Assembly: GCA_963971425.1 (NCBI GenBank)
Contig: OZ020518.1
Span: forward strand, 17,612,990-17,676,989
Direction of reading: 5' to 3'
Length of the DNA: 64,000 nt
From: Bryoerythrophyllum caledonicum
Taxonomy: Eukaryota > Streptophyta > Bryopsida > Pottiales > Pottiaceae
The notes under the pieces are model-generated. The model was not told the origin of the DNA. It searched no databases and saw only the letters and a program-made list of their open reading frames with translations. The stretch's first letter is position 1. Each line of letters opens with the position of its first letter. A program made the position numbers and the translations under genes. Positions 1 through 19,066 of the stretch are shown here, one piece after another.

Positions 1-3000
1 AGTACCGCACGACAAATACAAACTATAATAGCCGCACTAGAAGACGCAAAGTTTACTAACCAAGATATATACATACTATACGTGGACTTCAAAAATGCCT
101 TTGGCTCAATTGACCATGCCCGACTTCTAGCAATAATGATGGACCTTGGTTACCCAAAAGATGCAACTACACTTGTTGGAAACATCTATTCTAACTCATC
201 TACATGTTATACCGGTGAACACTTTGGGAAAACAAAACCTATACCCATCCAAAGAGGAACTATACAAGGGGATACCCTCAGCCCATACCTATTCATTATA
301 TTTCTAGAACCACTACTCAGGTGGCTAGAAAGAGGAAATTACGGATATACTTTTGGCACATCACAGGTCATAATAAACTCTGCTGCATACGCGGATGACC
401 TAGCCACCATAACTAACAAAATCAAATCAATCCAAATACAATTAAACAAAATTGATAGATATTGTAAATGGGCCGGTATGGACGTAGGTGTCCCAAAATG
501 TGCCGCTACCGGTTGCCCAAACAAATCCAAATTGAACCCTACCACTTTCAAAGCCCTAATGCAAGCCTCGAACATCAATTACCGCAATCAACCGATCCCC
601 ATACTACACCAAAATGAACCATATATATACTTAGGCACAAACCTTGTTCCCTCACTAAAATGGAAAATCCAAATCCACACCACAACGACAAAACTCATCA
701 AACAATGCAAAGAACTAACAACATGCCCAGCCACCATGAAACAAAAAATAAAAATGGTTGATACCGTACTACGCCCAGGTGTGGCATATAGTTTCTACGG
801 TGTACCATACTCTATGCCAGCTATCAAAAAACTTGATAAAAAAATAATAGCCATACAAAAAACCATATGTGGATTACCAAAATGTATGTCAAATGCAATA
901 ACCCAACTACCACATAACCTATTTGGACTTGAAGCTTTCTCCCTCAAAAACGCATACCTCCGATGTATAGGCGAACAACTGCAAAATGCTCTAAACGATA
1001 AAAGAAGACTTGGGAAAATATATAATGGATTAACTCACTATGTCCTTGCCCAATATGGTGGCGCTGAAAACATACCGAGAATTAAAAAAAGTGACTGCAT
1101 AAGATCACCAATAACACGAACATTCTTCTTATTAAAACATATAGCTAAAGCCCACCTTAAAAGTACGCTCCCGAACTTCCTCACTAATCCTACAACACTA
1201 GAAATACTATGGCGCCAAGAAACATTAAATCATAACACACTCAATGCCCAATTCTCCCAAAAGCTTCTACAAAAACTCCTCTCAAAAAATATTTTTGAAC
1301 TAAACCAAATTACCTTACCTAACGGTACACACATCATGAACAATGAGGACTTCAAAACCTACCACTTCACCCCATCCAAACTAATAAAGAGTGCCCTAAG
1401 TGTTGCTAAACAACTATTTTGCCACATAACATGGCCCACAATATGTCATTCTCCTTGCAACACACACCCATACTCTCATACAATTAAAGATTCATTCATC
1501 ACCCTCAACAATAACATCATCCCAAGAAATATTCCCACACCAACCAATCCCCCTAACCCTCCACATACATACCACCCCCGCCCCCCAACATACATCCCCA
1601 AAAACCCTACCACATACCCCATTAATAATATCATAAACCATAGACATATCCAACACACAGACACAAATAACATACAAAATACCTACACAAAATATCTATG
1701 CCAATGGCAATACAATGATAATACATACAATAAATGGCTCCCCCAAAGAGACCTTTTTCCACGGCATGACACCAATACCTCCACACATAACATTGAAAAA
1801 TTAAAACAATACTACCAAAAGATCCAAAACAAAATATACTCAGATATCATCTTGGCCCACCATCCACAAGAACAATCCTCAGACTCAAGGTCCGTAACGC
1901 CACCCATAATTATCCCACTCTTAAACATCTACACAATAGAATGCAATCCCGAAAATGATATCCTTACATCCTCAAACACAATTCAAATAGATAACAATCA
2001 AGCACATCTATACGAAGAAAATGGCCGACATTTACACACCATACCCATTACCCGGCTCCAATGGTTATGGAACCAATATCATACAAAATTACAAACCCCT
2101 ACAAACATTGAACCAACAACCCAACCCTTTGAAACCGAACTAATATGGCTTTACCAAAGGTATAAATATCAAATACCAAAAACTGACCCCCTCAAAAATG
2201 CGCAATACACAATACCCACCCCCATTTTAGACTCACTAATATCATCCTTTAACATCGAACACTCATACTTTTCCTCCCCGATCACATGTCCTACCAAACT
2301 AAATAAATTTTACTCACCGTACGAAAGAGACAAAATATTTGGATCCCTAGGCAAGGCCTTTGAACACAAATGGATCGGAAATGGAATAGCTCACCCCCAC
2401 AACGAGAAAGACATAGAACAAGCCATACATTGGGTTAGACTTGCCGCCAAACACGATCCAAATAACACAAAAACAATCATCGTAACACCGAACAACAATT
2501 GGTACCAAAACAACAACCAACATTCAAACCCATTCCCAGATTCCCACATCATTGCATTATTCGAAGCAGACACAATACCATACGAAGAACCTAATATCCC
2601 ACCCGAGCTAAAAAAACCCCGAATAGAGCCATCTACATTACAAATACTATGCGTCCATCATCAAAATCAAAACCTGGGCTCCCTAGAACAACTTGCGGAA
2701 CTTACCTCCATAACAGACAATCTAGATATACAACGACCATACACAAAACCGGCCCCACCAACACCCATACAAACCTCCGTAAACAAAAGTAAAAAATGGT
2801 CAAAATTAAACTATGACAACAACACATTAAACTACTCCGTCATACCTCCCCCTCTCCCAGACTACCCAACTCATACGACACCAAAATTTAACCCCGCATA
2901 CAGTTATTACACCGACGGCTCCTTTAAACCACCGGAACAAATTAGCCCGGGCTCTTGGCGAAGAGAAAAAGCTGGCTATGGCATATATAATTCTACCAAA

Positions 3001-4368
3001 GAAATTAAACTAGCCAAAAGACTCCATGGACTACAAAATATCCTGAGAGCAGAACTCATGGCCATTCACAAAACACTACAAATCATCACAACAAAATACA
3101 AAAATGAACCTGCACATATATTCACCGATTGTATAAATGCACTCTACCTACTAAACACTCAAATAACACACCCAACCCTTCACAACAGTCACCCCGACCA
3201 AACCATACTAACATCAATGGTACAAATGTTACAAAAACGCATACAAATCACAACCCTTCACAAAGTCAGAGCCCATGCCAACATTGATGGCAACGAACAA
3301 GCAGACAAACTTGCAAAAGAAGGCCGAGAAAAAACACACAAAAACGCCAAAGACCCTCACGAACATGCTCATGCCACCCCATATTACTTTCAAAAAGAAG
3401 ATTGGCCTTCCAAAGAAGATACCCCCGACAAAGGCCCAATTAGATTTCTGGGCAAATATCTCAAAAAACAAGACCTCTACAACAACCTGGACACAATCTC
3501 AGAAAATATTCCTAACATAGAAAAATGGACTAACAATAGTGACATAGACAATGAACTCTCTACAAACTTTTGGAAAAACCCCAACATCTCAGACTCACAA
3601 ATAACATGCCTCATCAAATTCCGTACGGGTCAGTACATGGGAAACGCTCGCAAACAACTCTTCTTTGGAATAGAAAGATTCCCATCCATAACATGCCCCA
3701 CATGCCCCTCAACGGACCCCGACACATGGCTTCATGTGCTACTCAAATGCCAAAACCACCACATACACTCTCTAATTGTTAAAAGACATAACAAAGCGGT
3801 ATGGAAAATCCGAAAACTAATCACCTCCTACAATAAATCGAGATGTTTCATACTTATGAACGCCGGCACTTTTAATAGCAATCCACAAGAAAACACGGTC
3901 CCCCCATGGCTACTTCCATGCTCATGTATGACCCAAAGATGTCATTGCAACGCTAGGCTCAAACCGGACATTCTTTGTGTCAAAGGTTTACCATACAACG
4001 ACCCACCACCCGAGAACATCAACCAAGACTACACCATTCAATTCATTGAATTCACATATTGCAACGATAGATTTTCTCCGGAAACAATCCAAAACAAAAT
4101 TGACAAATATCAACCCCTCATTGACGACATCATTGCCATTGGATGGAAGGTAGACCCCCTTATTGTTATCACATCCGGCGCTCGTGCCACCACCTTTATC
4201 CCATCTATGAAAACTCTCGAAGATACCTTCAAGATACCCATTGATACAATTAAAACTACCTTTAAAAATATCAACACCATCGCTATTCAACATGCCATGT
4301 CTATTTTACTGCATAAACGCAAAATCGAAAACAACCAAGTCCTCCCTGATAGGCAAGACCCCCCTTAG
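1..4368 (+). CDS. LINE ORF2 C-terminal part: reverse transcriptase, RNase H, CCHC knuckle, restriction-like endonuclease
   Basis: The open frame begins at base 1, before the first ATG at 82. The RT is visible by motif A (YVDFKNAF, near bases 74-100) and motif C (YADDL, 388-402). A long Pro/Asn/Thr-rich linker follows. The RNase H domain at about 2896-3330 shows YYTDGSF, LRAELMAI, IFTDCINA and DGNEQADKLAKEG, which together give the acidic active site. Near 3697-3755 is a CPTC...H...C zinc knuckle. Next come KRHNKAVWKI (about 3780-3810), KPDILCV (about 3962) and EFTYCNDRF followed by KYQPLIDDI...GWKV...GARATTF (4040-4200). In known families this order (CCHC, RHN, KPD, D/ExT) marks the restriction-like endonuclease of R2, NeSL and Dualen-type elements. 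The frame has no stops over about 1,455 codons, so this part could still be functional. Confidence 0.9.
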   Translation, partial: STARQIQTIIAALEDAKFTNQDIYILYVDFKNAFGSIDHARLLAIMMDLGYPKDATTLVGNIYSNSSTCYTGEHFGKTKPIPIQRGTIQGDTLSPYLFIIFLEPLLRWLERGNYGYTFGTSQVIINSAAYADDLATITNKIKSIQIQLNKIDRYCKWAGMDVGVPKCAATGCPNKSKLNPTTFKALMQASNINYRNQPIPILHQNEPYIYLGTNLVPSLKWKIQIHTTTTKLIKQCKELTTCPATMKQKIKMVDTVLRPGVAYSFYGVPYSMPAIKKLDKKIIAIQKTICGLPKCMSNAITQLPHNLFGLEAFSLKNAYLRCIGEQLQNALNDKRRLGKIYNGLTHYVLAQYGGAENIPRIKKSDCIRSPITRTFFLLKHIAKAHLKSTLPNFLTNPTTLEILWRQETLNHNTLNAQFSQKLLQKLLSKNIFELNQITLPNGTHIMNNEDFKTYHFTPSKLIKSALSVAKQLFCHITWPTICHSPCNTHPYSHTIKDSFITLNNNIIPRNIPTPTNPPNPPHTYHPRPPTYIPKNPTTYPINNIINHRHIQHTDTNNIQNTYTKYLCQWQYNDNTYNKWLPQRDLFPRHDTNTSTHNIEKLKQYYQKIQNKIYSDIILAHHPQEQSSDSRSVTPPIIIPLLNIYTIECNPENDILTSSNTIQIDNNQAHLYEENGRHLHTIPITRLQWLWNQYHTKLQTPTNIEPTTQPFETELIWLYQRYKYQIPKTDPLKNAQYTIPTPILDSLISSFNIEHSYFSSPITCPTKLNKFYSPYERDKIFGSLGKAFEHKWIGNGIAHPHNEKDIEQAIHWVRLAAKHDPNNTKTIIVTPNNNWYQNNNQHSNPFPDSHIIALFEADTIPYEEPNIPPELKKPRIEPSTLQILCVHHQNQNLGSLEQLAELTSITDNLDIQRPYTKPAPPTPIQTSVNKSKKWSKLNYDNNTLNYSVIPPPLPDYPTHTTPKFNPAYSYYTDGSFKPPEQISPGSWRREKAGYGIYNSTKEIKLAKRLHGLQNILRAELMAIHKTLQIITTKYKNEPAHIFTDCINALYLLNTQITHPTLHNSHPDQTILTSMVQMLQKRIQITTLHKVRAHANIDGNEQADKLAKEGREKTHKNAKDPHEHAHATPYYFQKEDWPSKEDTPDKGPIRFLGKYLKKQDLYNNLDTISENIPNIEKWTNNSDIDNELSTNFWKNPNISDSQITCLIKFRTGQYMGNARKQLFFGIERFPSITCPTCPSTDPDTWLHVLLKCQNHHIHSLIVKRHNKAVWKIRKLITSYNKSRCFILMNAGTFNSNPQENTVPPWLLPCSCMTQRCHCNARLKPDILCVKGLPYNDPPPENINQDYTIQFIEFTYCNDRFSPETIQNKIDKYQPLIDDIIAIGWKVDPLIVITSGARATTFIPSMKTLEDTFKIPIDTIKTTFKNINTIAIQHAMSILLHKRKIENNQVLPDRQDPP

Positions 4369-4618: not shown

Positions 4619-5396
4619 GAATATCAAGTTTTTTTTTTTCTTGTGGACAGTTACCGTATGAAACCTCAATAATGATTTGGTTACATCTTGAGCATTCAAG
4701 TCAAGAAGGGTTGAGTGCATGTAGAAAAACAAGAGTTTGCAAGAAAGAGCTTGGGAATAATAGGACGTAGGTATGAAGCAAAAGGAAAAATCTCAAAAAT
4801 TGGACAAAGTAAAATATACATATGAAGGAAAAATGAGATTTCAAGTAGAAGAATGGGAAAATAAGAACATTCTTTTGGGAACGAAAGTGAGAGAAGAAAG
4901 GAATATTGGAGAAGGGAAAAACTTAAACATACAAAAAAATATAGAAATACAAAAAAAAAAAAAAAACCTCATTCGATATCCATCACATATGCATTCAATG
5001 TGCATTACATATTATGTAAATATTCATTAAATACTCATTGAATATGCAAATACACATTGAATTTACATTTGAAATTTATTAACTATTCATTAACTATTCA
5101 TTAACAATACATTAAATATTCTATAAATAATCCTTAAATATACAAATATACAAATATTAATTAAACTGTCATAGAATATACTTTTAAAACTCTAAAGAAT
5201 CATTAAAAAATATTTAAATATTCTTTAATTGTTCATAAAAATTATAGATATACAAATAGACATTAAATATTCTATAAAAACTCATTATGTAGTCATTAGT
5301 TATTGGCTTAAGATATGATTACACATTAAATATTCATTAAATAGTCCTAAATGATGTAAAAGAAATGCAAGACAAAAGAATGAGAATAGTTGTGAA
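4619..5396. other. AT-rich stretch without genes
   Basis: This stretch has no convincing gene. From about 5000 to 5340 it is a degenerate AT-rich repeat made of variants of CATTAAATATTCATTAA, and an A-run lies near 4952-4967. Short open frames here lack any recognisable motif. Confidence 0.6.
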
Positions 5397-5697
5397 TCTA
5401 TATCTATAAAAGAATTTAGGATGAAATGAGCGCGCCAATGGATGAACGGGTAGATGAAAAACACATCGATGGATGAATGCGTAGATGAAAAAGATTTTGG
5501 ATGAAAAGCTAAAAGTTAGGGTTCTAGATTAAAGGATGGGACGAAGACGGGGACGGGGACAAGGACAAGGACGGGGACGGGGGACAAGGGGACAAGGACA
5601 GAGGGACGATGGATTGGAGGGAAAGGGCTAGGGGACGGGGAGGTGGGGAATCAACACAAAAAAATGTTGTGTCCGGAGGACATGGGTAACAATCTAG
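5397..5697 (+). mobile_element. Small non-autonomous Helitron
   Basis: The 301-bp element starts with TCTATATCTATAAAAG and ends in CTAG. The flanking bases are A (5396) and T (5698), the usual Helitron insertion context. About 10 bp before the end is a short hairpin, GTGTCC-GGA-GGACAT (5669-5683), as expected of a Helitron 3' terminus. The interior holds GGATGAAA repeats and a G-rich minisatellite of GGGGAC units (about 5533-5640). Related copies in minus orientation lie at 34534-34704 and 36863-37243. Confidence 0.8.
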
Positions 5698-5936
5698 TAA
5701 GACGATAAGAATTTGGGGGTTGATGAGACAAGAAGAATAAATGCATGGCGACCGGTTGGCAGAAGATTCTGAGCTAACACTATTTATGAAGTAACAAATT
5801 TGTGTGCTAGGGTAGGGTTTTGATGGAGGGCTAATACAAAATGAACTGCAGTAGGTGGACAAATGAAGGATAATATTAATGACAATGACAGCTAAAACTA
5901 ATTGCCAACTTGTTGACAAATAGTGTACTAGAAAAA

Positions 5937-6190
5937 GAGCATCTCCACCGGGGCAGAGGGTCCGGGAGAATGTGTCCAATCATGTAATGACAGGAGGGAA
6001 TTAAAAAAACAATAGAAAACTAAAGAAAAAAGGGCCAACTACGGTGACAGCGGCGAGCGCTGGCGTTCCCTTGGAGTGGCCAATTCCAGGACGGGTGCGG
6101 AAGGGAAAGGGTAACCCCTCTCCCGTTATCTCAAACTTGGGCACGTCTCGTGATGGCGTGGAAAATTCCCCGTCACAAGTGGAGATGCTC
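5937..6190. mobile_element. Harbinger-like MITE
   Basis: A 254-bp non-coding element begins GAGCATCTCCACC and ends in the inverted GTGGAGATGCTC. The flanking trinucleotides AAA and TAA are close to the TWA duplication expected of PIF/Harbinger MITEs. It shares termini with the 505-bp copy at 33415-33919, which has a clean TTA duplication. Confidence 0.75.
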
Positions 6191-6296
6191 TAACTACACT
6201 ATTTGTATCGATACACTAAAAGCAAATATACTAAAGCTTAACATACTAAAGCTTAACATACTAAAGGAAAATGAAGTGAAATGAAAAGAAAAAATT

Positions 6297-6397
6297 CACA
6301 CTTTAGCTCTATTAGAGCTAAAGTGTGCACCATCACTAAATGTAGGGAACTAAATAGAGAATATGCACACTTTAGCTACAATAGAGCTAAAGTATGC
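6297..6397. repeat. Two palindromes related to the intronic palindrome family
   Basis: CACACTTTAGCTCT and AGAGCTAAAGTGTG form a perfect 14-bp stem around ATT at 6297-6327. A second, less perfect inverted pair with TTTAGCT/AGCTAAA lies at about 6364-6397. The arms share CACTTTAGCT with the palindromes of the 8.4-16.1 kb unit but have different centres. Confidence 0.8.
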
Positions 6398-6399
6398 AC

Positions 6400-7261
6400 C
6401 TTCTCTTTTTATTTTACCTTTATACTACTGCAAGATGTGGTCTTAACATACTAATAGTCTGTTTGATTCACATAGTAAAAAATATCAAACTCACAAAAAA
6501 GGAAAACTGGAATTCAAAGTAATAGAATTCTAAATCGTATTGTTAGAGCTATTTTAAATGTGCTTCACCCCTCTCCAACACCTAATAACTGGTGTAGGAG
6601 GAACTTATATGTAACGATGGTAATGAATTTACACCTTGTGTAATGCAATAATTGAAATTCTGTGAAGTGAAAGCCAGCTAATCCAGTCAGAGCATGAAAG
6701 AAAACCAAGCACTTTAATCCTATTTTCAACACTAAACACATGAATTGTTCACGTCTGTGCAATCAAAGTTTGTGTATTATAAAGAATATGTGAATATATA
6801 AGTCTTAAATGAGATCATACGTTTGAAATTGGAAATATTATATTTTCTTTGACTATCGATCATTGCCTCAGAATTTACAAATTTGTAGTGTTTTAGGTTC
6901 AGAGAAATTGTCTTGGAAACTTACAATTAGAGAAATTGTAAACGCGTATAAAACTAAAGTTACGAGAAGTTTTAACTTTTGTTAAAAATGAAATGGAAAA
7001 TGCGCAAAATGTACGAAATCAAACTGATTTTTTTTGAAAATCAAAAAGTAATTTTTTTAAAAAAATCAAAAAGTAATTTTTTTTTAAAAGTCAAAAAGTA
7101 ATTTTTTTAAAAAAAACTCTGAAAAAGATGGTGCATCCACCATAATACCCGAGGGTATTAGACCGATATATGAGAGAGCATCCCGAGGGTATCACGGTGA
7201 TCCCGAGGGTATCCCCGCGGCTATAGGAGCCGACCTCACGGCTTAGGGTTCGAAGCCGAAG
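6400..7261. other. Non-coding region with two short repeat clusters
   Basis: No gene is supported here. At 7027-7110 there are three tandem units of about 36 bp containing TCAAAAAGTAATTTTTTT. At 7145-7217 the motif CCCGAGGGTAT occurs three times just upstream of a probable transcribed leader, so it could belong to a promoter. That role is only inferred from position. Confidence 0.5.
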
Positions 7262-7726
7262 ATGTCCAGGGTTTGGAATCGGGCCGCGACTTCATTTCTT
7301 CTCTCTCGTTTTCGTGTTCCTGTGTGTGTGTTTCTCTTCGTTTTTGTGTCTGCTCATCCTCTTCGTGTTCGTATTTTGCTTGCGCTCTACTCGTGCCGCG
7401 CTCGTGTTCGTGGTATGCTCGTGTTCGTGGTATGCTCGTGTTCGTGTTGCGCTCCAGCTTTTGTTGTGCCTTGTTTGTGTAGAATACTTGTGGGTTTGTG
7501 ATTGTAGTGGCAGTGTTGAAAGAGTTTATGTTAGGGTTTGTTGCGCATGTTCTCCAAAACGTGTAGGCTTAGGTTTTCTGCTGATAGAGTTTGTAGGAAG
7601 TGAGAGTTAGAATTCTGTAAGGTTTCAAGCACGTAGAGATAGAAACGCGTAGTGCTGTGATGGATTGACGTGAATTTCAAAGAGGAGGAAGAACAAGAAG
7701 CTGAAGAAGACTTTCGACACTTAAAG
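7262..7726 (+). other. Probable 5' leader exon of the multidomain gene
   Basis: This pyrimidine-rich stretch contains three tandem copies of about 20 bp around 7394-7450 and ends at a good donor (AAAG|GTATGT, intron from 7727). A strong acceptor (TTTTTGCAG) ends at 8290. I infer a non-coding leader exon and a 564-bp leader intron. Several short overlapping open frames run through the leader but none resembles a protein. Confidence 0.45.
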
Positions 7727-8470
7727 GTATGTATACAAATTTTTTTCTTCTACAATTGTTTCGTGATTTTTCTAGTTTGGTGAATTATGTTTGTTGTTTC
7801 GTGTTTTCTAGTTTTCTGTTTGTTGAAATTATGGTGTTTTGTGTTTGGTGTTTGCTGTGATTGTATGTTTTTATGTTCTTTTCCTTCAGGCATTTGATGT
7901 GTCTCAGTTCCTTAGTTTCTGTTTGTATTGGGAGTGCGTGTGTTGATTGTTGTTTTGTGGAATTGGTGTTAATTTCTGTCATAGTGTTGATACTACTTCG
8001 GTTTTATCTAAAAAATTTGGATTCAATGTGCTCCTTTGTACTTTGTGCTTTGAGAATGTGCTGGTTTCTGTTGAATGTGTTGATTTCGATGTGTTGAATG
8101 TTGAATGTGTTGAAACGTTCACTGTGTTGAATTTTCAATGTACTGCTTAATGTATTGGTTTTTCAGTGGTTCTGCATTGTGATTGCTTCTGTGTGGTTGT
8201 ATTTTCTGTCTGCATGTTGTAGTTTTTTGGTTTTGGGATAGAGTGATTAGTTGATTGATTGTGTGTGTGGGTTTGTTATTGTTTTTGCAGGAAGTCTAGT
8301 TACAGCAGAGAAGTACTGGGATAACATTTCATTATCAATGGCTGAAAGGTAAAATATATATTGTCACCCAGGAGCCCTTAACCCTTTGCCTTAAATATCA
8401 TAAGATGGAAGGCTCATATAACCAGCATTCACTCAGTTGAAGTGTGGCCAATAGAGTACACTGTTGGCCC

Positions 8471-8759
8471 CACTTTAGCTCGACTCGAGCTAAAGTGCGG
8501 CCAATAGAGCGCATTATTGGTCGCACTTTAGCTCGAGTCGAGCTAAAGTGACGCCAACAATGTGCACTGTTGGCTCACTTTAGCTCGAGTCGAGCTAAAG
8601 TGTGACCAATAATGCGCTCTATTGGCCACACTTTAGCTTGAGTCGAGCTAAAGTGCAAACAAAGATGCACTATTCCAGTACACTTCAGCTCAAGTAGTAC
8701 TGAAATGTACAGGAACAGTGCTTTGTTGTCTGCACTTTAGCTCGACTCGAGCTAAAGTG
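8471..8759. repeat. Cluster of five 27-bp palindromes in intron 2
   Basis: Copies lie at 8471-8497, 8524-8550, 8576-8602, 8629-8655 and 8733-8759. Each is a 13-base arm CACTTTAGCTCGA, one central base (C or G), and the inverted arm; one copy has a single mismatch. Spacers share GCCAATAGAGCGC-like text, itself partly inverted between neighbours. A degenerate copy sits at about 8880-8908. Any transcript would form very stable hairpins. Confidence 0.95.
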
Positions 8760-9003
8760 TGGCCAATAGAATGCGTCTATGGTCGCGCTAAAACCCGGAT
8801 CAAGCTTAGTTAATGATATTCACAACTCTCAAACCCAAATTACTCAATCAAGATTGGCTTTAGAATCAACAAAGCCAACACATTTTACCTCGAACCGAGC
8901 TAAAGTGTAACACAAATGACCTTAATTACAACTAATACACAACTACTTTCGGACCTTAAAACATTCAAACAAAAGTTTACCTATGATATCGATGACCCAA
9001 TTC

Positions 9004-9157
9004 ATGTCCACTTCTCGTTCATCTTTCACAAGTGTGCAAGAGCTTCAGTCCCGCTTCAACCACTTGAGAACCTCGAAGAATGAGGTTCGTGAGTGATTAA
9101 AGCGGAACTGAAGCTCTTCCACAGTTCTGAGTGTTAAATGAGAAGTAGCCATGAATT
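9004..9157. repeat. Long imperfect inverted repeat (hairpin) in intron 2, copy 1
   Basis: A roughly 75-base left arm (from CATGTCCACTTCTCGTTCA through AGAGCTTCAGT to GAACCTC) is followed after a few bases by its imperfect reverse complement (GAGGTTC ... ACTGAAGCTCT ... TGAGAAGTAG). The stem has small bulges, like a plant miRNA precursor or a foldback element. Confidence 0.85.
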
Positions 9158-9237
9158 GAATTTACAGATCTAGGAAAGACTTCTAAAGGAATATTGAATG
9201 TTTTAGAGCTATACTGATATACATTCTATGTTGTAAT

Positions 9238-9586
9238 ACTTTAGCTCGAATCGAGCTAAAGACAAAGCTAATGCTTGACGACAACAATGTTACAGACGTG
9301 TAATAGTCTAGTTTCTCAACTCATGTCTACTACTCGTTCACCTCTCATAAATTGTGCATGAGCTTCAGTCTTGCTCCAACCACTTGCGAACCTCTAAGAG
9401 TGAGGTTCGTGAGTGATTGGATCGGTTCGTAAGCTTTTCCACGGTTTTGGGAGTTGAACGAGAAGTATTCTGAATTGATTGAAAGGGTCTAAAAAAATGT
9501 TCCAATTGACTAGATTCTGTTGCAGAGTATTATTCACATACTTGTATTTGGTTACACTTTAGCTCGAGTCGAGCTCAAGTGTAACC
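9238..9586. repeat. Palindromes at the end of intron 2
   Basis: A shorter copy lies at 9238-9261 (TTTAGCTCGA/TCGAGCTAAA around a central A). An extended copy lies at 9550-9586, where the stem grows to 18 bases per arm (GGTTACACTTTAGCTCGA and inverse, one mismatch). The second ends 66 bp before the exon at 9653. Confidence 0.9.
9312..9478. repeat. Long imperfect inverted repeat (hairpin) in intron 2, copy 2
   Basis: A diverged copy of the hairpin at 9004-9157, about 320 bp downstream. The left arm holds TACTCGTTCACCTCTCATA and GAGCTTCAGTCTTGCT, and the right arm holds GAGGTTCGTGAGTGATTGG and GAACGAGAAGTA. Both arms have changed, yet pairing is largely kept. Confidence 0.8.
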
Positions 9587-9652
9587 TCGTCGTCCTAATT
9601 GGAAGATCGATGAAGCAATCTAATTATTGTGCTCTGTTTTGTGTGTGTGCAG

Positions 9653-10412
9653 ATCTGAGAGGGACATTATGGTGACTCAGCTGCAGCACTTCTTCCAGCC
9701 AAAGCCCGTCGACATTGATGATGACGATGGAGACGACAACAACCACTTGGATTGGTGGGAGCTCAAGGACCCATCAATGACATTAAAGTGGACGCTTTTG
9801 TGGGCCACCTACACAGGTAATCTAGTGTTTGGTCAGACCTTCGCTGGTGATATCGCTGAACCCCAGCACACCGAATTCACAACTAAAATTACTGATGTAG
9901 TCCACGAAGATAACGAACACGTTAAGTTGTCGTGTGTGACAACCACTGAGTCCGTTGAGCCTTATATGTTTACTATTGTAGTGAACAATGTTTCCTCATC
10001 CTTCTGTATCCAGGATTTAGTCGATTCTCTTAGGTCGTCCAAATTTGAGGAAATAGTGACTCAGGTCGAGCATGAGATCTCTCTAAAGAAATGGGAGACT
10101 AGTTGCGGACAATCGCTGAAAGCAAAGGCTGTAGCTAATAAACTGAGCATCATTCTATCTAGAATGAGTACCTTTGCCGCTCTAGATAAGCCCAAAAGTA
10201 TCGCGGCAAGACGCCCGATAGAAATTTCAATGGTTTTGGGGGTCGTGACCGGTAGCCAGGATATGAGTCAAGCGCCGGTTCCGGTTAGAACACCAGGTGC
10301 AAGAATAAGTCAAAGCACGCTGCGCAACACGCTGTCCGCTTCTCCCGTCAAGAAGCGTTCAGCTGCCAAGAAGCCGGAGACCTCTTCGAGAAAGAAGACG
10401 AAGCTCGTTTAA
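9653..10412 (+). CDS. N-terminal segment of the multidomain gene, unknown function
   Basis: The start codon lies in a tiny exon (ATG at 8338, last base 8348). The split arginine codon is completed at 9653, giving MAERSERDIMVTQL. The segment is about 250 residues, with an acidic Asp/Asn stretch near its start, a middle part with alternating hydrophobic residues, and a lysine-rich end (KKRSAAKK, SSRKKTK) that looks like a nuclear localisation signal. A TAA closes it at 10410-10412. The same frame continues without shift into the ParB-like segment, so the TAA is either a true end of a separate protein or a single inactivating stop. An internal donor-like CAG|GTAATC at about 9815 does not join the next segment in frame, so I did not use it. 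Confidence 0.55.
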
Positions 10413-11099
10413 CAGGAGGAGTTAGCCAATTCGATGGCCTCTGCACTCTCGGAGCTCCCTCAGGCGCTCGGGTTCGGAGAGACAATCGACTACAACAACG
10501 TCCAACAGATTTATCAAAAATTCTGGACGGAGTGTCAGAGCTGCTTCTTCAAAGGAGACAGAGAGATGAAGATCGAGCTTGACGTGATGAGGTTGCATAA
10601 TGCACCGCTGGAGTGGACGATCCGTACATTCGAACCTCGGGGTATGGAGAAGTTGAAGCATTACTACCTCCAAATGCCAGATAAGACGCAAAAGCAGACT
10701 CTCTGCATCATGCCGAAGCTCGATGCTATGCCGACGACTGTTGAGGAGCTCAGCGGCTGCGACTACTATGTCATCAACGGCCAGCACAGCGTTGCTGCAT
10801 CAAAGGAGATGATAAACGGCAACGTCCTAGAGGTGATGAGAAGGCACTTCCGAACATGGCAGTGTTACATTGTCTGGACGCAGGATGCGGAGAAGCTGAG
10901 AAAGATATCTGCGTATTATAATCGCGTGAATCACTTGGTCCAGTTCAAGCCGACGTGGGCAACAAATATCCTCGGCTCCCGTGCTTTGTGGATCCAAGGT
11001 GGGAGACCAATGCCGAAGCACTCCGCCACAGGCGTTTGCGGGTCTCACAAGTCAGGTCGGAGAACGGTAGTGGAGATTACAAATGACAAGAACTTTGAG
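10413..11099 (+). CDS. ParB/sulfiredoxin-like segment
   Basis: The first ATG is at 10434. The segment contains YYVINGQHSVAASKEM at about 10765-10810, followed by a beta-strand-like WQCYIVW and NRVNH. This resembles the ParB/Srx fold signature (DG.HR..A followed by VP.IV and a conserved Asn). In bacteria and phages such domains act as CTPase switches or nucleases and are often encoded beside DNA methylases. The match is by eye and moderate. The exon ends at GAG|GTAATA (11099/11100), and splicing to CCGTTTCTT at 11329 keeps the frame. Confidence 0.5.
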
Positions 11100-11124
11100 G
11101 TAATATATCATAACCAAGGTTATG

Positions 11125-11250
11125 CACTTTAGCTCGACTCGAGCTAAAGTGTATGGTTGCTCAATATCTGTATTATGTTTTATGGAGACTGAAATCGCTT
11201 GCATTGTATACTCTAAGGTTGCAAGTTAGCTCGACTCGAGCTAACTTGCA
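11125..11250. repeat. Two palindromes in intron 11100-11328
   Basis: A perfect 27-bp copy (arms CACTTTAGCTCGA, central C) lies at 11125-11151. At 11220-11250 the arms are TGCAAGTTAGCTCGA and its inverse. The outer bases differ from the consensus but still pair perfectly, so the pairing rather than the exact sequence is kept. Confidence 0.95.
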
Positions 11251-11328
11251 GTTGTTGGACCCCACTCGATATGCATATATTTCTGCTTTAATTGTAAACT
11301 TAATTGACTTTGTTTATATTTTCCGCAG

Positions 11329-12696
11329 CCGTTTCTTAACGCGGTTCATGAGCGCTTCACAATGATCGACGTTGCAAAGAGCCAAGCAGCGCTCAAGAAA
11401 GCCGGAAAGGCGAAGGAGCTCTCGATTACGAACGAGGTGAAGATCATCACCGCGACCGATGAGACCTTCAAGCTTTGGTCGGATGTCATCTCTTCGGCGG
11501 CGCATGGCAACTTCATCAACGTCGATTCGACTTCGACGCCCATGGCAAAGTTCAAGGACGCCCAGTCTTGGGTGCCTGAGAAGGATGGGGTCCTGACGCG
11601 CGAGTTCTTCAAGTTTCTCGGCAACATGACCGAAGCCGATCACGCGAAAATGTGCAAGCACATTCTCAATCGGTCAAGGCCATCTCGAAAACTGCCCTAC
11701 CCTAAGGTGGTTATAAAACAGTCGACTTCTGTGCTGGAGGATTGTTACACTGCCCGGGACTGGGTGGATCGGAGGAAGAGGAAGGAGGTCGCTCGGATAG
11801 AGCTTCAGTTGATCAGGCCGAAGCCGGCCTTCTTTAACAGCTCTGGAGCGTACAAGCGTTCCAACTGGCCGACGTTCAAGAAGAAGCACAACGTTAGCAA
11901 GGCCTCAAAGCGTGCCCTCTTGGATTGGGGTCCACCGGATTCATACTACAAGGGTTCGAGGCAGACGCAGTTTTGCAACTGCAAATGTAAAGATCTCTCT
12001 CCGTATGCTAAGGAGTTCTTCAGAGTCTTCATCGATGTGCGATCGCGGTTTGTTCCACCGCAGGGGGCCTTGCACTTTCGTGCGTACAAGGCGGCAACGA
12101 ATTCGCTCGAGACGTGGCCTTCAAATTCGTGGCGCAACCTGGGATGCAACATGAAGCTCGGCATTATCGACTTCCTAAACATCCCTGGTTTCTCTGGGAA
12201 GGCAACGTCGTCGTTGGAGAGGCCCTTCTTCGACGAGTTCATGACCATGTTCGCATCGAAAGGGCAGCCTCCCCTCACCGATCTTCCAGCCTGGCTCTTC
12301 ATTTGCGGCGACGAGCACTCACACCTTCAAGTGACAGCGTTTGCTGAGGGCCCGTCGTTGTGCCATGCATACGATGTGCTGCACTCAAAGTATCTTCCCT
12401 CCGAGAACAAGCGCTTGGAAGGATTCGTGCCAAAGAGCAACAACGCTCTCAACCCTGTTCGCCTCCTCTTTCTCTTCAAGAAAGAGCTCACGCAAATCCC
12501 GGCCGTGAAGAAGACCTACGCAGCTCCGGAGCATGTATTGTACACCAAACTTCGCAAGTACAACGAGCTGGCGTACTCAATGAACATGAACGAGCTCAGG
12601 ATGGAGTTCTTCATCAAGGTCCTGGAACTATTCTGCAAGAAGGGGGAGGCAGTTGTCCAACTATTTGGCGGGACAAAACTGCTCATTGCGAGTGTG
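11329..12696 (+). CDS. DNA N4/N6-methylase-like segment (beta-class motif order)
   Basis: Downstream of the acceptor TTCCGCAG the frame runs 456 codons. A possible catalytic motif IV is LLDWGPPDSYY near 11917-11950. A motif I-like sequence (GEAVVQLFGGTKLLIASV) lies at the C-terminal end, across the junction with the next exon, which adds a further acidic stretch. Motif IV before motif I is the order of beta-class N4/N6 amino-methyltransferases. LFGGTK resembles the SAM-binding FxGxG loop but lacks its last glycine, so activity is doubtful. A Cys-rich CNCKCK lies near 11978. GC content is well above that of the introns, as expected for real coding sequence. Confidence 0.55.
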
Positions 12697-12710
12697 GTAA
12701 GTTTCCCTGA

Positions 12711-12955
12711 AGTTTAGCTCGAGTCGAGCTAAACTATTGATACCTCTCTTTGTCTGTGCATGGATTGTTTCTGAGAGGTCGTCTCTCACGCTTTTGTAGC
12801 TCGACACTTAAGCTCGAGTCAAGCTAAAGTATCGGCTTATACTGATATAATTTTCTAGCCGTATTTAATCACGTCGTATCCTTTCATGTTAAAATAGTTG
12901 AGTTTAAATAGCAGTGTTACTTTGTGTTCACTTTAGCTCGATTCGACCTAAAGTG
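12711..12955. repeat. Three palindromes in intron 12697-12982
   Basis: Copies lie at 12711-12735 (perfect, AGTTTAGCTCGA arms around G), 12805-12830 (imperfect) and 12929-12955 (one arm altered to TCGACCTAAAGTG). The first begins only 14 bp after the 5' splice site. Confidence 0.9.
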
Positions 12956-12982
12956 TATCTCGTTCAACCCATTGGTGTGTAG

Positions 12983-13939
12983 ATGTTGGATCTGGAGGCA
13001 TTCTGCATATCCCACAACACTGATGAGCAGGAGCACGACGACGCCATGGAGGTCGCGTTGACGTTGGATTGGGCCGATTTTGTTATTGGTTTCTATCACG
13101 TCAACGCGGAGATCTTCCGCAAGCTTGGCACGGCAGTTGCCAAGGGGAAGGGAAAGGCAATTATTGACCTCGGCGACGAGGAGGAAGATGAGGACTCGAG
13201 CGCTCTGGTTGTTTGCCCGAGCTCGAGTACAGCCACTCCGGATGATGAGTCTCATGACGACTTCGTTGACGCCATTCCGCCGGAGTTTCAGAGTGTCTCT
13301 CAATCTGAAGCGGGAGACACAATCGGTTCCTCGCGGCAGCGACTCGACTTCCCGGAGTTGGATTCGCTGGATATTTCCGGCAGGCCTCATTCAGCTCCCA
13401 CCTTGGGCGGGTCATCCGCTCGTCCGCGGCCAAGAAGAGGAAGGTCGTGAGCGCGAGCGGGAGCTCTCCGTTGGCTATGGCGAGCAGCGCATAGGATAAC
13501 AGCAGGTTGATCTCCCTCGAGAAGAAGCTCGAGGAAGAGGCCACCCGGATGAGGTTGATGGAGCAGCGGCTGGCGGAGCGTGACCAGGAGCTCAGGGATC
13601 TGCAACAGACGCGCGACGAAGAGATGAAGAGGGACCAAGACCAGAGGCACGCCGAGATGATGCTCATGATGTAGAGATTCATGTCGGCTAATTTGCCTGC
13701 TGCCGCCACGACACCATCCGCAGTTCATGCTGCATTCCCCCAGCCTCCCTCCTCAGCAAAAGGCAGGTCAGAGAGTCTGCCCGACAATTCGTTGCTGCCG
13801 TCTCCGGCGGGTTCCTCCCCTGTCTCCATTGGGGGTCAATCGCTTCCTGTTCCCCCATCCCCGTCGGCCCGCGCCTCTTCCCCTCCGAAGTCGCCCGCTC
13901 GGGACGTTTCTATCGTTGATGTCCCCAGCTCATCGTCAG
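12983..13939 (+). CDS. Acidic linker, nuclear signal and coiled-coil segment (broken)
   Basis: The exon starts right after an acceptor (GTGTGTAG|ATG). Its first part completes the methylase-like domain and continues with an acidic run (DLGDEEEDEDSS) and a Ser/Pro-rich linker. The coding frame then moves by one base near 13390-13435. In the new frame there is KKRKV, an SV40-type nuclear signal, followed by a charged heptad-like coiled coil (LEKKLEEEATRMRLMEQRL and onwards, 13510-13660). A Ser/Pro/Ala-rich region runs up to the donor CAG|GTTAGT. Two in-frame TAG codons (13492 and 13672) interrupt the coiled-coil part. Confidence 0.5.
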
Positions 13940-14037
13940 GTTAGTGTAACGTAGTTGCCAGTGTATAGAGGCAGAACATTTTGTAAATGTCCAATTTTAT
14001 ACTCCAGTAATTTTTATTAATATTACAGTGCTCATCG

Positions 14038-14068
14038 AGTACTTCAGCTCGACTCGAGCTAAACTACT
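14038..14068. repeat. Palindrome in intron 13940-14147
   Basis: AGTACTTCAGCTCGA, a central C, and TCGAGCTAAACTACT. The inner 10 bases pair, with scattered mismatches outward. Confidence 0.85.
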
Positions 14069-14147
14069 TGACATCTGACGACTTTGACTTGTATCACTGT
14101 CCTTTGTGCGCATCAGTTGATTAGTTGAAGTTGTTGAATTGTTTCAG

Positions 14148-14419
14148 ATCTAAGTTTTGGTGATGACGCGATCGCTCGCCCAGTCATTGATGAGGTCATC
14201 CAAACTGTAGTCCCATTCGTAGAAGAAGTCGTCCAAGCTTCAGTCGTGCTTGTAGACGAGATCAAACATGATTCTGCTGTCCCGGAGCCACCTCTTCTTG
14301 TCTCTGAACCGTGCCCCCAAATGGTTGTGGGGCTCTCGGAACCCCTTGACACCATGCAGGGTTCATTGGGATCGATGGGGGTCCGAGACGAAATGCAACA
14401 AGACGATGAAGTTCTTGAG
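14148..14419 (+). CDS. Acidic/valine-rich linker exon of the multidomain gene
   Basis: The exon lies between acceptor TTTCAG (ending 14147) and donor GAG|GTACTC. It completes the split codon of the previous exon and is open for 90 codons. It is acidic, with repeated EV/DEV and IQTVV-like stretches and no recognised fold. The following 157-bp intron is one of the two introns of this gene that lack the palindromic repeat. Choosing the acceptor at 14576 rather than 14553 keeps the frame. Confidence 0.45.
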
Positions 14420-14576
14420 GTACTCTTCTAACATTTTTCACACTCCACTCTCCCCCCCAATGACGTCTCCCTAAACCGTTTGCCTCTTTCGTTCGACATT
14501 TTGTTGACCCGTCGTTGTTAATGAATCTTAAGTAATATTGTTCGTTCTCCTAGCGTTTCCGAACCATGTCTGCGAG

Positions 14577-15362
14577 GCATCAATAAGTGGTGCCAATAAT
14601 CTAGAAGATATACCTAGAGTCCTATCAGATTTCGAGGGCAGGTGGTTGAATGTTGTGCTGGACCTCAATGGGATTCTATGCACGTATGAGCCTACATGGC
14701 AGGCAAAGGGTCCAGGAACTCTGACTCGTCCATTCACTCGGCTTTGCAACCGGTCGAAGTAGGCCCTAAACTAGTCCGAGTGCGTCATGGCTGTGCTGAG
14801 TTCCTCACAAAGTTGTCTAAGATTGCCACCATTACGATCTGGAGTTCGATGATGGAATCCACAACTCATCAGATATGTAAATATCTTTTTCAGCATAGTT
14901 CTTCGTACCCTCTCAAGATCTTTGGTCAGGAGAGTTGCGATAGGGTTCCCGAGCGTAGAGTCGGTAGCAGAACAATCTACATGAAGGAATTTGGCACTCA
15001 GAAGGACATCTTCTTGAAGACCTTATCGAACCATCTCTTCAATAGGTTGGGTCGTGAGTATACTCCGGCGAATACGCTTGTCATTGACGACAACCCGATT
15101 AAGCATATGCTCAATTTGCCGGAGAACGTTCTTCTTCTTCCATCATGGTGGCACAAACATGATGGCGCGAGAGATGATTTCTGTACTACTGGAGGAATTG
15201 CTGCCATATCTCTCTGACCTTCATCAGTTTCCGGGTGGCCTAGCGCAGTACTGGGCCGAACATCCCTCGGGCCGGGAGATGTTCTATAATGATCAGAAGA
15301 TGTGTGGTCAGTCTGCGAGTATCTGGAACGCAATCCAAGCCTATCTGAATCTCCGCTCTTAG
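14577..15362 (+). pseudogene. FCP1/NIF-like HAD phosphatase domain (frameshifted)
   Basis: The domain shows VLDLNGILC (about 14658-14684), where the usual DxDGT/L nucleophile motif reads DLNGIL. It continues with a central ATITIWSSM (about 14825) and VIDDNP (about 15082), the C-terminal acidic motif of the HAD fold. Members of the FCP1/SCP group dephosphorylate RNA polymerase II C-terminal repeats or related nuclear targets. The second Asp of the first motif is replaced by Asn, which would be expected to impair catalysis. Two one-base shifts (about 14690-14760 and 15170-15200) break the frame. The final part (LLPYLSDLHQFPGGL and onward) ends at TAG 15360-15362. Confidence 0.65.
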
Positions 15363-15633
15363 TGCCATTGAAAACGCTTAGATCCTTATTACACTATAGG
15401 TCGGATAGAGTTAAACTGTATCGGTTGAGTGCAACGCCATTTTGTAAATTTTGTCGGGCCATTTTTTGTGTATATATTTTTTTGATTTATGAAACCGAGA
15501 TGTTTTGCCGCTTTATTTTGTTTTCCGTAATGGACACCTACTGCTATTGGGATATCGTGCTGTTTTGAATGATTGGAATTTTCGTCAATTGTTTTGAGGT
15601 ATGTGAGCGTCACTTTGGTTGAACTTTCTACAG

Positions 15634-16479
15634 GATTGTGATTGTCGGGCGTCAGTGGATTCCTTGCTGGGCCCAGAGGAGCTCGCCCTTTCCCTTCGGA
15701 GTAAAGGGCTATTGCTACACTCTGCTGCAACCGCGCAGTCAACCATGGATTATTCGACCATGACAGTGGACGACGGAGTTGTTGAAAGTCCTATTGCGCG
15801 GGAGCCAATTCATGAAAGGAACAACTCACCTTGCCCGTAGTGGCCTCGCTCAGTTCCAGGGTCTCCGCGTCTAAATCCGGATAGTTGTACTCTGGTAAAG
15901 CGTATATACTATGACGGTTTATGGGATGCTACTTTCCAACGCTTGCTCGCGGTGCGTGTTATGCTAGCCTCTAAGTTATTGCACTATTGAGTCGTTCTTG
16001 CCTAGACAATCTTGGTTTTTTGTTAAGCTACATTGCACTCATGTAGTTTTTTTTTCGGTTGATCTCGTTGGATGTTAAATAAACTCTGTGGATCTTCCTT
16101 TTAGCATTTTAGCTCCATTCGAGCTAAAGTGCACTAGGATGGATCTTAATGATACAGTTTTCATGTGTGCCGTGTAAGAGTATTCGACCTAAACTGTATT
16201 TGTTTGGATTGTATGTGGCGCCTATTGTGCAGGACCCATCTGGTAAATGTCTCCGTCCTCGTATTCTCTCAGAAAATGCTGCTAGAAACAAATGCTCTCC
16301 TTCCGCTTCCACCCGCCGACACTCGCTGCCCAAATCAAACACTGACGTGGTGCGTAGGCGGGGTTTGCAGCGTCTTCTAGAGAGTCCGTTAATGCAAGAG
16401 AATGGTGCATCATGGACTAGGCAACGTCAGAGGGCTTTTTTGAAGACGCGTATAGAGGCTTATGGAGGAACTCCCTAGA
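15634..16479 (+). pseudogene. Two-exon small gene downstream of the FCP1-like segment, unknown function
   Basis: Exon one runs to 15951 (CTCGCG|GTGCGT), after a possible acceptor (TTTCTACAG) that ends at 15633. The intron 15952-16232 ends TATTGTGCAG. Exon two is 16233-16479, ending in TAG. Frames agree across the junction. The C-terminal exon is basic (STRRHSLPKSN, VVRRRG, RQRQRAFLKTR) and might bind nucleic acid. An in-frame TAG at 15838-15840 breaks exon one. The N-terminal start is uncertain; an internal ATG is at 15745. I recognise no family. Its intron carries the same palindrome as the gene upstream, so it probably belongs to the same mobile or co-inherited unit. Confidence 0.4.
16105..16133. 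repeat. Palindrome in the intron of the downstream small gene
   Basis: GCATTTTAGCTC/GAGCTAAAGTGC around CATTC, inside the intron 15952-16232. It is a degenerate member of the same family, linking this gene to the multidomain unit. Confidence 0.8.
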
Positions 16480-16708
16480 CCATTTGATTAGTGATAGGAG
16501 GATTGTGTTTTGCCTCTGGATAAATGGGTGTTTTGTGTAACTTTTTTTCATAAAGTTTTGAATAAGGCCTGAATTAATGGTATATGCTTTCTTTACTATT
16601 ACCTTTTTTGGACATTCGGCTAATTTAGTCCATCCATGGAATGAAATATAGTATTCTTGGTGCATTGTCTTTATGCTCTACACCTACAAATGTCTATATA
16701 TAGATACT

Positions 16709-17844
16709 TCAAAGATCATATATCTTCAAAGTCATGGAAATTTCCCAATATAACAAATATGGTGTTCCATGCTTCTTTAAAAAAATTGAAAGCTTTTGCA
16801 TATGAACTCTCCACCATTGTCCGACCAAAACACCTTGATCTTGTGCTCTGATTGCTACTCCGCAAGAGCCTTCAACTCCTTGAACTTCTGAAGGCATTTC
16901 TCCATTGTCTTCAAGTTGTATACCCACTCCTCAAAAAGTCATCAATGAAGGTCACAAAATATCTTGTACCACCTATGGAAGTGGTCCTCTTAGGGCCGCA
17001 CACATCCGAATTCACAATTTCCAAAGCCTTTGATGCACGCGTCGCTTCATCCTTTGAGAATGGTATCCTATGTTGCTTGCTTTGCACGCATCCTTCACAT
17101 AATGACATTGATAATTCATCTTTACGAAGGATGATGCCACCTACCATGCTTTCAAGTAAATGCACACTTCTCATGTTCAAATGACAAAGTCACAAAGTTG
17201 ACGATGCCAAAGTCACAAAGTTGACGATGCCAAAGTCACAAAGTTGACGATGCCAAAGTCACAAAGTTAACGATGCCAAAGTCACAAAGTTGACGATGCC
17301 AAAGCTCCAATGCACCACTCTCTATTGATGATTGTGCCACGTTGGCCGCAATTGCCTCAAACACTTTCATGAAGATCACTTGGTACAAATTGCCTTCACG
17401 AGGTGCTACCACGAGAACATCTTTATTTGGTGCCCACAACACACATCCATCCGCATTGAAATACACCTTCATTCCACTTGTCACAAGTTTGCTCACCAAG
17501 AGTACGTTGACTTGCAACTTGGGCACATGGAGAACGCCCTTGATTCTAAACCTCTTAGAGCAACCCCTCACAAGCACTTCGACAACAATAGATCCAACGC
17601 CAACGGCCTCGAAAACACTATCATCACCCAAATGTACGTCACGTGGAGTAATTACCTCCCGGTCTGAGCGACCGTCCGGTCCGCATGTCCGTCCGTTAAG
17701 GATAAGGGGAGGTCCATTATTAATCAATTTAAGGTTGACCGTTTGAATGGTTAAAAGAGATTTACCTAATCCACCTAGGATGCCACATGTCTGACATGTC
17801 ACCAAATATTCCAAAGAATAAAACGGACATGGGGGGGTGCACAT
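16709..17844 (-). pseudogene. Ty1/copia pol fragment (GAG-pre-integrase and integrase)
   Basis: Read on the minus strand from 17844, the frame resembles a copia protease/pre-integrase region (LHVPKLQVNVLLVSKL, then LELWHRQL). It then runs into a 23-bp tandem repeat. After it come the pre-integrase knuckle (LCEGCVQSKQHRIPF) and the integrase start (NSDVCGPKRTTSIGG, RYFVTFIDDFLR, 16911-17180). Further on is KIKVFWSDNGGEF (about 16790-16830), the second integrase acidic motif. Stops and shifts interrupt the frame. No LTRs were found at the ends, so it is a partial relic. Confidence 0.85.
17185..17299. repeat. Five tandem 23-bp units inside the copia fragment
   Basis: CAAAGTCACAAAGTTGACGATGC is repeated at exact 23-bp steps from 17185, 17208, 17231, 17254 and 17277, with one changed base in the fourth unit. 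Because 23 is not a multiple of three, the expansion disrupts the pre-integrase frame. Confidence 0.95.
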
Positions 17845-17894
17845 TAGAAAAGAGACGCGAACGCCGTGGGGAAACCCGAACGTCTTGAGAGGGG

Positions 17895-18104
17895 GCGCGA
17901 ACGCCTCCTATTTTTTCATTTCAGCAACTTTGGATGGCCATAAGTTGGTCAATTATTATCCAAATCTAGCGTATGAGATGTTTTTTGACATTTTCATTTC
18001 TTGCACATGTTAAAAAACATCTCATAAGCTTGATTTGGACAATATTTGACCGATTTATGGCCATCAAAAGTTGCTGATATGAAAAAACAGGAGGGGTTTG
18101 CGCA
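17895..18104. mobile_element. Foldback/MITE-like element with about 95-bp arms
   Basis: The left arm (from GCGCGAACGCCTCCTATTT through CAGCAACTTTGGATGGCCAT to GAGATGTTTTTTGACAT) is matched by an inverted right arm ending GAAAAAACAGGAGGGGTTTGC, with a short loop around 17994-18011. Pairing is roughly 85 percent by eye. Such structures are either foldback transposons or young hairpin RNA loci. No coding sequence lies inside. Confidence 0.8.
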
Positions 18105-19066
18105 CCTGCAACGACTACACCACAACGTTGCATAAGCTTCATTTAATGGAGAATGTTCTAGAGATGGAAACGTGGAACGCTCGAAACGAATTCCCTCTCA
18201 ACAAATGCCAATCTGATGATTTTCGAAAGCGGTATTTGGAGGTCTATTATTGGATGAGGCCTGATGCGACAAGGCCACCAAAATCTGGCACTAAGTTATA
18301 GATGCAAATGGTGTACGCCAAATTGGTATTCTAGAGGCTCGTGGATTGGCGGTTGGTGAGGACAAAGACTAAGTTGTCCGTCCAACGCGAGCAACAAGAC
18401 ATACCAACAAGCGTGGTATGGCTCCTAAGCATCCTCGCAGAATCGACATCGGACAAAGACAACGCGCCAATGGAAGTCGTTGCACCGGCCATTGATGGCA
18501 ATGGCCAACAACAAGAGGAGACGTGGACGAGACTCCATGCAAAGGTGTTCAATCTCCGGCCTCAACGGACAATACTATGGCCATGTTTGGCGATCATCTG
18601 CAACCAACTACAACCGTCAATGCGGAAGAGCCAAAGGCATTTGCTGGCCAGTTGTTACTAGCGGACGAGAGAGTAGAAGTTGGGCTTGGTTACAACGCAA
18701 CAGAACTGCCGGAATTGCAGGTGAAGCATAAGGCTACGTTTCAAGAAGTTTGGGACTGCACAAACGAGAGGTCAAGAGAGCGGGCGTTGCTTGAGGCTGC
18801 GGACAAAGAATATTGCAACCAAATCATCAACAATCTGAGGTAGAACTTGAGCAAGCGCGCCTTGAAAAAATTATTCATCGCGCAATGCAGGCAAAGTTGG
18901 AGGAGGCCAAGAAAGAATTGAAGGCCGCCAACCACCTCATCAAGGGTCTTTAGGCGGAGCTCACAGCAATAACTCATACAAATGCGGAGTTCGCGGCAAT
19001 GGCTCCAACCGCACCAAGCAACAACAACAATGTCAGAGCATCTTCGAGCATGCCTCAAGAGTGAAA
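18105..19066 (+). other. Unidentified coding relic
   Basis: Several overlapping short frames on the plus strand look like the remains of one protein. They include VYYWMRPDATRPP (about 18240), an Asn/Gln-rich middle, and a charged, probably helical end (QVKHKATFQEVWDCTNERSR, then a Lys/Glu-rich stretch to about 18950). Stops at 18841 and 18951 break it. No family is recognised. It may be the gag or accessory part of a transposon. Confidence 0.3.

Follow-up and report, generated by a model that had tools for sequence, protein, structure and literature searches.

In Arabidopsis, the VANC21 protein binds a short motif in the introns and upstream DNA of the transposon VANDAL21, which loses silencing marks (PMC5735166, PMC10398659). 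The motif often lies in tandem repeats and is rare in other transposable elements (PMC5735166, PMC10398659), and VANC6 has a different motif (PMC5735166). The TnpA protein is described as activating Spm, in correlation with demethylation (PMC10398659). We describe here a locus in a 64,000-nucleotide stretch of contig OZ020518.1 (referred to below as the window). The locus represents the 3′ two thirds of a DNA transposon of approximately 19 kb with cut-and-paste anatomy, in a decayed copy. Its gene, at 8338-16478, encodes a protein with ParB-like, methylase-like and FCP1-like parts, and its non-coding DNA harbours a family of palindromes. In the best explanation we can offer, for which the balance stands about even, the palindrome would be a self-recognition site that the fused protein binds, thereby protecting the element from silencing.

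The host of the element is taken, by inference, to be a moss. The element is like the VANDAL21/VANC21 pair in being a multi-gene DNA transposon with a motif enriched in its own non-coding DNA, introns included, and in arrays, and in having a related element with another motif. It differs in that the VANC21 motif, YAGTATTAY, is arrayed in one orientation whereas that of the moss element is a 27-bp palindrome, and in that binding and methylation loss are demonstrated for VANC, and would hold for the moss element by analogy. No VANC-type protein or Mutator-type transposase gave a Pfam row in the pieces scanned, VANC itself not being directly compared. A recognition system like that of VANC and the VANDAL motif, but probably assembled from unrelated parts, is suggested. 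With Spm/En (CACTA) the moss element shares the form of a large plant transposon with terminal inverted repeats (TIRs), Spm having a helper protein, TnpA; unlike Spm/En, it has AACACC rather than CACTA termini, a 4-bp target-site duplication (TSD), and sites not confined to its ends. Members of the CACTA superfamily have CACTA termini and a 3-bp TSD, and such termini were not found in the moss element.

A large transposon with two genes

Eight copies of the element were compared, that of the window and seven on contig C1 (A-G). The 3′ end is the identical base, within one, in all five copies compared at that end. The TIRs are 18-28 bp long, with the sequence AACACCATATTCGTTATAWTGGGAGATT. In copies A, B and E the 5′ start is the inverse of the 3′ end, giving perfect TIRs of 18, 18 and 24 bp, and in D and F it is a one-base variant of the inverted end; in the stretches fetched, the 3′ end of D and F and the 5′ end of C were not seen. 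Full copies measure 18,997 (A), 18,918 (B) and 18,960 bp (E), A and B being 97.2% identical across 19 kb. Exact sites of the TIR 18-mer number 331 + 357 (688) in the 437-Mb host genome, against 0 + 0 for the control. Of 13 paired ends, 10 show a perfect 4-bp target duplication, compared with 3 of 156 in the mismatched control, and L034, L052 and copy A lack it; 15 pairs at 16-20 kb spacing were available among 100 places listed, of which 13 were examined, ten by reading the ends alone. The element is dispersed on many contigs: for one exon, 93 of 1627 first-look candidates were scored, all of which match across 455-456 residues, and 54, the window's copy among them, are stop-free inside. The initial annotation had proposed a decayed copy of a mobile or virus-derived multigene unit and a search of the same genome for others; other copies, A, B and E included, were found, and both decay and mobility are borne out.

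The window copy starts at element position 7003, abutting a reverse-transcriptase element, and blastn of copy A revealed no match to the initial 7 kb, where the DUF7869 gene lies, either in the window or in the 10 kb upstream. No useful pair of long terminal repeats or TIRs was found between flanks within the window, because the 5′ end of the element lies outside it. A full copy has two oppositely oriented genes, that for the fused protein and, in the half absent from the window, the DUF7869 gene (profile match E 1.7e-37), which is broken by stops in copy A. Its product is likely the transposase of the element; by eye, DUF7869 may be RNase H-like/DDE, and a PDB sequence search of one DUF7869 piece gave no match. 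Among titles and abstract starts of open-licence papers, none on this element or with DUF7869 was found. One further locus, L055 (G000:C1:25031688-25041201), is a fold-back derivative consisting of two inverted 5′ parts, the outer flanks of which are mutually inverted too.

The ParB-like, methylase-like and FCP1-like parts, which the initial annotation had recognised by motif, are each backed by fold or profile, and occur in one polypeptide in moss relatives. Profile searches confirmed the FCP1-like part, with Pfam NIF above its gathering cut-off in the window (45.9 vs 21.8 bits, E 6.2e-12), but not the other two, for which Pfam rows lay below cut-off only, PHROG rows had E of at least 0.05 and NCBIfam gave no row (weak HAD rows in the relative P0048 being the sole NCBIfam exception). 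For these two parts the ParB N-domain fold and the beta-class DNA amino-methylase fold, respectively, were recovered. A PDB sequence search with a 726-aa piece gave two rows (E 0.5-0.7). The cluster of one Ceratodon protein comprises 139 member sequences. A NIF protein filed under Acinetobacter baumannii (P0197), with 89% identity over 55% of the moss FCP1-like query, is probably a contamination.

Bacterial ParB loads on palindromic parS sites and has a GxxR-type CTP-binding motif. The moss protein is like it in the fold of its N-terminal domain and in the palindromic DNA sites beside its gene; it is unlike it in having INGQHS for the GxxR-type motif, which was not found in the ParB-like part, in showing no recognised helix-turn-helix (HTH), and in its unrelated site sequence. 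NGQHS is present in 83 and NGQHR in one of 84 matches to a search pattern that itself demanded GQH. Unlike beta-class amino-methylases such as M.BceJIV and CcrM, none of 263 relatives, many of which are fragments without the methylase-like region, has a DPPY-type motif ([DNS]PP[YWF]), and by inspection IDFR or IDLR stands in its place. The nucleophile motif of FCP1/NIF phosphatases is DxDxT; the first motif of the FCP1-like part is DLNG or DVNG in 88 of 89 matches to a pattern that permitted D at the second place (the 89th being a chance match elsewhere), and the second aspartate is missing.

With Ceratodon and Physcomitrium relatives as queries, tblastn located coding sequence, in collinear order, at 9648-11096, 11332-12699, 12971-13408, 14571-15335 and 16278-16475; exon 1, the leader and the exon at 14148-14419 were placed by inspection alone. 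Of the six-exon, GT-AG gene read as one frame in the initial annotation, the exon order and the GT-AG introns largely stand, but not the single frame: the copy is decayed, with a nonsense codon at 10410-10412, one frame break near 13440 and others within the FCP1 part. Relatives leave the donor of the last intron ambiguous, as several Ceratodon models stop at the equivalent of 15360-15362 in the window while P0013 splices to the last exon. Copies A, B and E agree in the order and position of exons and gaps. Since this layout is common to them, and since introns 2-4 with their palindromes recur in another moss, the introns belong to the element, and the proposal that a unit had become intron-bearing is not supported.

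A viral ancestry had also been proposed. Phages often have ParB-like and amino-methylase folds, but the TIR and TSD anatomy is that of a transposon, and no confirmed relative emerged when viral contigs were scanned twice with protein queries and once for the palindrome, an absence that is weak evidence. We regard derivation from a DNA virus as extremely improbable.

Number and placement of the palindromes

With up to two mismatches allowed, the window contains 36 matches to the half-site CACTTTAGCTCGA, whereas 100 shuffles average 1.33 and never exceed 5. The matches are confined to 6299-16196, and the remaining 54 kb have none. Palindromes occupy introns 1-4, the non-coding DNA that precedes the last exon, and element DNA upstream of the gene, but no exon, in agreement with the early observation of one family present in every intron except the leader intron and that of 157 bp. 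Near-perfect palindromes of any sequence number 15 in the window, ten of them of this family (within 6297-12735), against 1, 0 and 0 in three block shuffles. The exact half-site occurs 2546 + 2516 times (5062) in the host genome, against 2 + 1 for the reversed control, and the places listed are clustered.

About 30 copies of the 27-bp palindrome are present per full element, at the ends, in intergenic DNA and in introns, including an array of approximately 47-bp period before the DUF7869 gene and one of approximately 52-bp period in intron 1. Half-sites number 63, 63 and 58 in A, B and E; by contrast, 21.0 kb outside A contain none and 21.1 kb outside B contain one. The tblastn matches cover 37-40% of each element and include 4/63 half-sites in A, 2/63 in B and 0/58 in E; two in A and two in B represent one palindrome starting 14 bases past the end of exon 3, and the other two in A sit, by inspection, before the start of exon 4. 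The palindrome is a feature of the element's non-coding DNA, not of introns as such.

The main rival explanation holds that the palindrome is the site at which the DUF7869 protein or a TnpA-like helper acts in transposition, as with the subterminal repeats of Spm/CACTA, while the fused protein acts otherwise. Half-sites are indeed found close to both ends of full copies (positions 61, 511-656 and 18414 of copy A), and the fold-back derivative L055 retains 16 inside and 2 just outside its ends. Many sites are nevertheless remote from either end, within introns and arrays, where a transposase site has no obvious use, and we consider this explanation rather unlikely.

It could also be argued that the palindromes act as RNA, in the form of pre-mRNA hairpins which aid splicing or feed small RNAs. 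In the window, the distance from the end of the exon to the start of a palindrome is 26 bases in intron 2 and 14 bases in intron 3, the latter distance being found in A and B too. Intron 1 also contains two related long hairpins of 167 nt, of pre-miRNA-like shape, which fold far better than shuffles and are represented by 14 instances across the eight copies examined. Yet palindromes are found in intergenic and terminal DNA as well, and donor-proximal sightings in relatives are biased, because only frames read through from an exon reveal them. Covariation of the long hairpins is weak (5/56 pairs), that between hp1 and hp2 alone being no better than shuffled, and a target of the hairpin 21-mers was not found in the window; three near matches with 4 mismatches are chance-like. 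An action as RNA appears quite improbable. The reading of the hairpins as microRNAs was rejected, all Rfam rows being below the gathering score and covariation being slight.

Conservation, change of motif and the candidate reader

Relative to the seven other copies, the palindromes of the window are 91.7% identical (1508/1645) and the other bases of the same stretches 82.1% (8897/10832), with exons at 86.6-93.4%; the stretches were those with single palindromes, namely introns 2, 3 and 4, the non-coding DNA leading up to the last exon and the two gaps adjoining the hairpins, but not the intron-1 array. The 147 distinct palindromes of the eight copies show 49 changes that are mirrored on the two arms, where permutations give 24.4 (0/2000 reach 49), a count that is supportive only, since the copies are related.

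The translated palindrome is recognisable in 18 of 263 relatives (shuffled mean 0.67, maximum 3), which are predictions running past exon ends, although one of them, P0108, has it in coding context. A scan of prokaryote genomes yielded two loci (L056 and L057) among 157 stretches, both from AVDCRST_MAG81, an assembly labelled as a cyanobacterium; as they encode the fused-protein family at 44% identity, with introns, they are taken to be mis-binned moss DNA. By a core definition leaving the outer bases free they hold 15 palindromes, 13 of them distinct, in which the base before AGCT is C in 26/26 arms, as opposed to T in 106/122 arms of the 61 distinct palindromes here (Fisher value 3e-18, relatedness ignored). 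Exon maps and splice sites place them in introns 1-4 of L056 and introns 2-4 of L057, the assignment to intron 4 of L057 being the least certain. Exact TTTA-type palindromes number 10, 7 and 6 in the full copies here, and exact TTCA-type ones 0. QL[DE]SS, as which the TTCA type should be translated, stands at the end of five fragments, and one of these (P0083) also has a match fitting either type. Because sites in introns judged homologous share the C variant in L056 and L057, most sites have changed together and kept their places.

The palindromes might instead be neutral mini-repeats that spread and are homogenised inside the element. Their tandem arrays, their variable number between copies and even the concerted switch could be so explained, but conservation about as high as that of exons, and retention in the same introns of another moss, render this explanation very doubtful.

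That the fused protein reads the palindrome is the explanation we prefer, at the even balance given above, because the motif, as with VANC21 and VANDAL21, is kept in the non-coding DNA of one element, partly in arrays, is conserved about as well as exons and switches as a set, and because it accompanies a ParB fold; a symmetric site suits a dimer, and it is the second gene of the element that has this fold. The fused protein would bind the palindrome, most likely as a dimer, through its ParB-like part and neighbouring regions; its methylase and FCP1 folds would serve binding, not catalysis. Once bound it would mark or open the element against host silencing, DUF7869 would act as the transposase, and protein and motif would evolve together. 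Several points weigh against the fused protein as reader. No DNA-binding HTH was recognised beside the ParB-like fold; in the N-terminal piece a Tc3-type HTH match reaches E 0.0013 and 19.4 bits, short of the 31.5-bit cut-off. The leader intron and the 157-bp intron are devoid of palindromes, and in the closest copy, E, palindromes are no better conserved than the rest (0.942 vs 0.938). The relatedness of copies makes the permutation and Fisher figures overstate certainty. The switch is known from two contigs of one assembly, one of which has a single half-site of the window's type (L057:4793), and gene conversion could homogenise sites without a reader.

Features of the window and implications

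Coordinates of the element and its gene are collected below.

Table. Features of the transposon copy and its fused gene (window positions)
Feature	Positions	Strand	Remarks and basis
Transposon remnant	4634-16767	+	Copy A positions 7003-18997; blastn, matches of at least 250 bp
Two palindrome pairs upstream of gene, element intergenic DNA	6297-6411 (6297-6327, about 6351-6411)	.	
Proposed leader intron	7727-8290	+	GT-AG, no palindrome; sequence
Proposed first coding exon	8338-8348	+	ATGGCTGAAAG; inspection, sequence checked
Intron 1	8349-9652	+	GT-AG; palindrome array (~53-bp period), single palindromes, two long hairpins
Long hairpin 1	8998-9164	+	Fold z -12.7 for 8995-9170
Long hairpin 2	9317-9483	+	Fold z -9.1 for 9310-9485
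Exon: acidic N-terminal domain and ParB-like fold	9653-11099	+	Nonsense codon 10410-10412; tblastn, fold
ParB-like region, approximate	10566-10960	+	Motif INGQHS
Intron 2	11100-11328	+	GT-AG; palindromes 11125-11151, 11222-11248
Exon: helical region and most of methylase-like fold	11329-12696	+	Methylase-like from about 12060; tblastn, fold
Intron 3	12697-12982	+	GT-AG; palindromes 12710-12736, 12805-12831, 12929-12955
Exon: end of methylase-like fold, acidic and coiled-coil-like linker	12983-13939	+	Frame breaks, stops; tblastn
Intron 4	13940-14147	+	GT-AG; palindrome 14040-14066
Exon: linker	14148-14419	+	Inspection
157-bp intron	14420-14576	+	GT-AG, no palindrome
Exon: FCP1/NIF-like domain	14577-15362	+	DLNG motif; frameshifted; stop 15360-15362; NIF 6.2e-12, tblastn
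Non-coding stretch before last exon (last intron or spacer)	15363-16232	+	Palindrome 16105-16131, decayed one near 16184
Last exon	16233-16478	+	Terminal ...RIEAYGGTP* shared with Ceratodon P0013; 65% identity across 66 residues
Right terminal inverted repeat, decayed	16738-16767	+	Terminates ...AATATGGTGTT

A 125-bp imperfect palindrome of a different kind is present just outside the element, at 17937-18061. On the plus strand, positions 1-4365 form a 1455-aa reading frame, still open where the window begins, from a reverse-transcriptase element; it has RVT_1 (2.7e-18) and RNase H (1.5e-12) matches with, between them, PCIF1_WW (1.6e-10), an unusual passenger, PCIF1 being an mRNA cap methylase. 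Diverged repeat pairs of 72-79% identity are found at 11-2122/50149-52270, which are reverse-transcriptase elements, at 39423-41415/56767-58769 and at 53580-54457/58783-59674.

It is tempting, though we judge it slightly more doubtful than not, to envisage a clade of giant moss transposons in which a bacterial-type ParB fold, fused to methylase and FCP1 folds deprived of their canonical catalytic residues, would constitute a sequence-specific self-recognition factor for a palindromic code dispersed through the element's own non-coding DNA, in which code and reader would switch together between lineages, and in which a ParB/parS-like mark would have become an anti-silencing mark. If true, this would be a second, independently built plant transposon with a private DNA code separating self from genome, and the idea derived from VANC would become testable as a general rule. 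ParB and amino-methylase folds would be seen to serve a eukaryotic mobile element as readers, and there would be an explanation for a moss gene family whose members are filed as "hypothetical" or "FCP1 homology domain-containing". Relatives in Physcomitrium and Ceratodon, both of which are grown in the laboratory, make tests practical.

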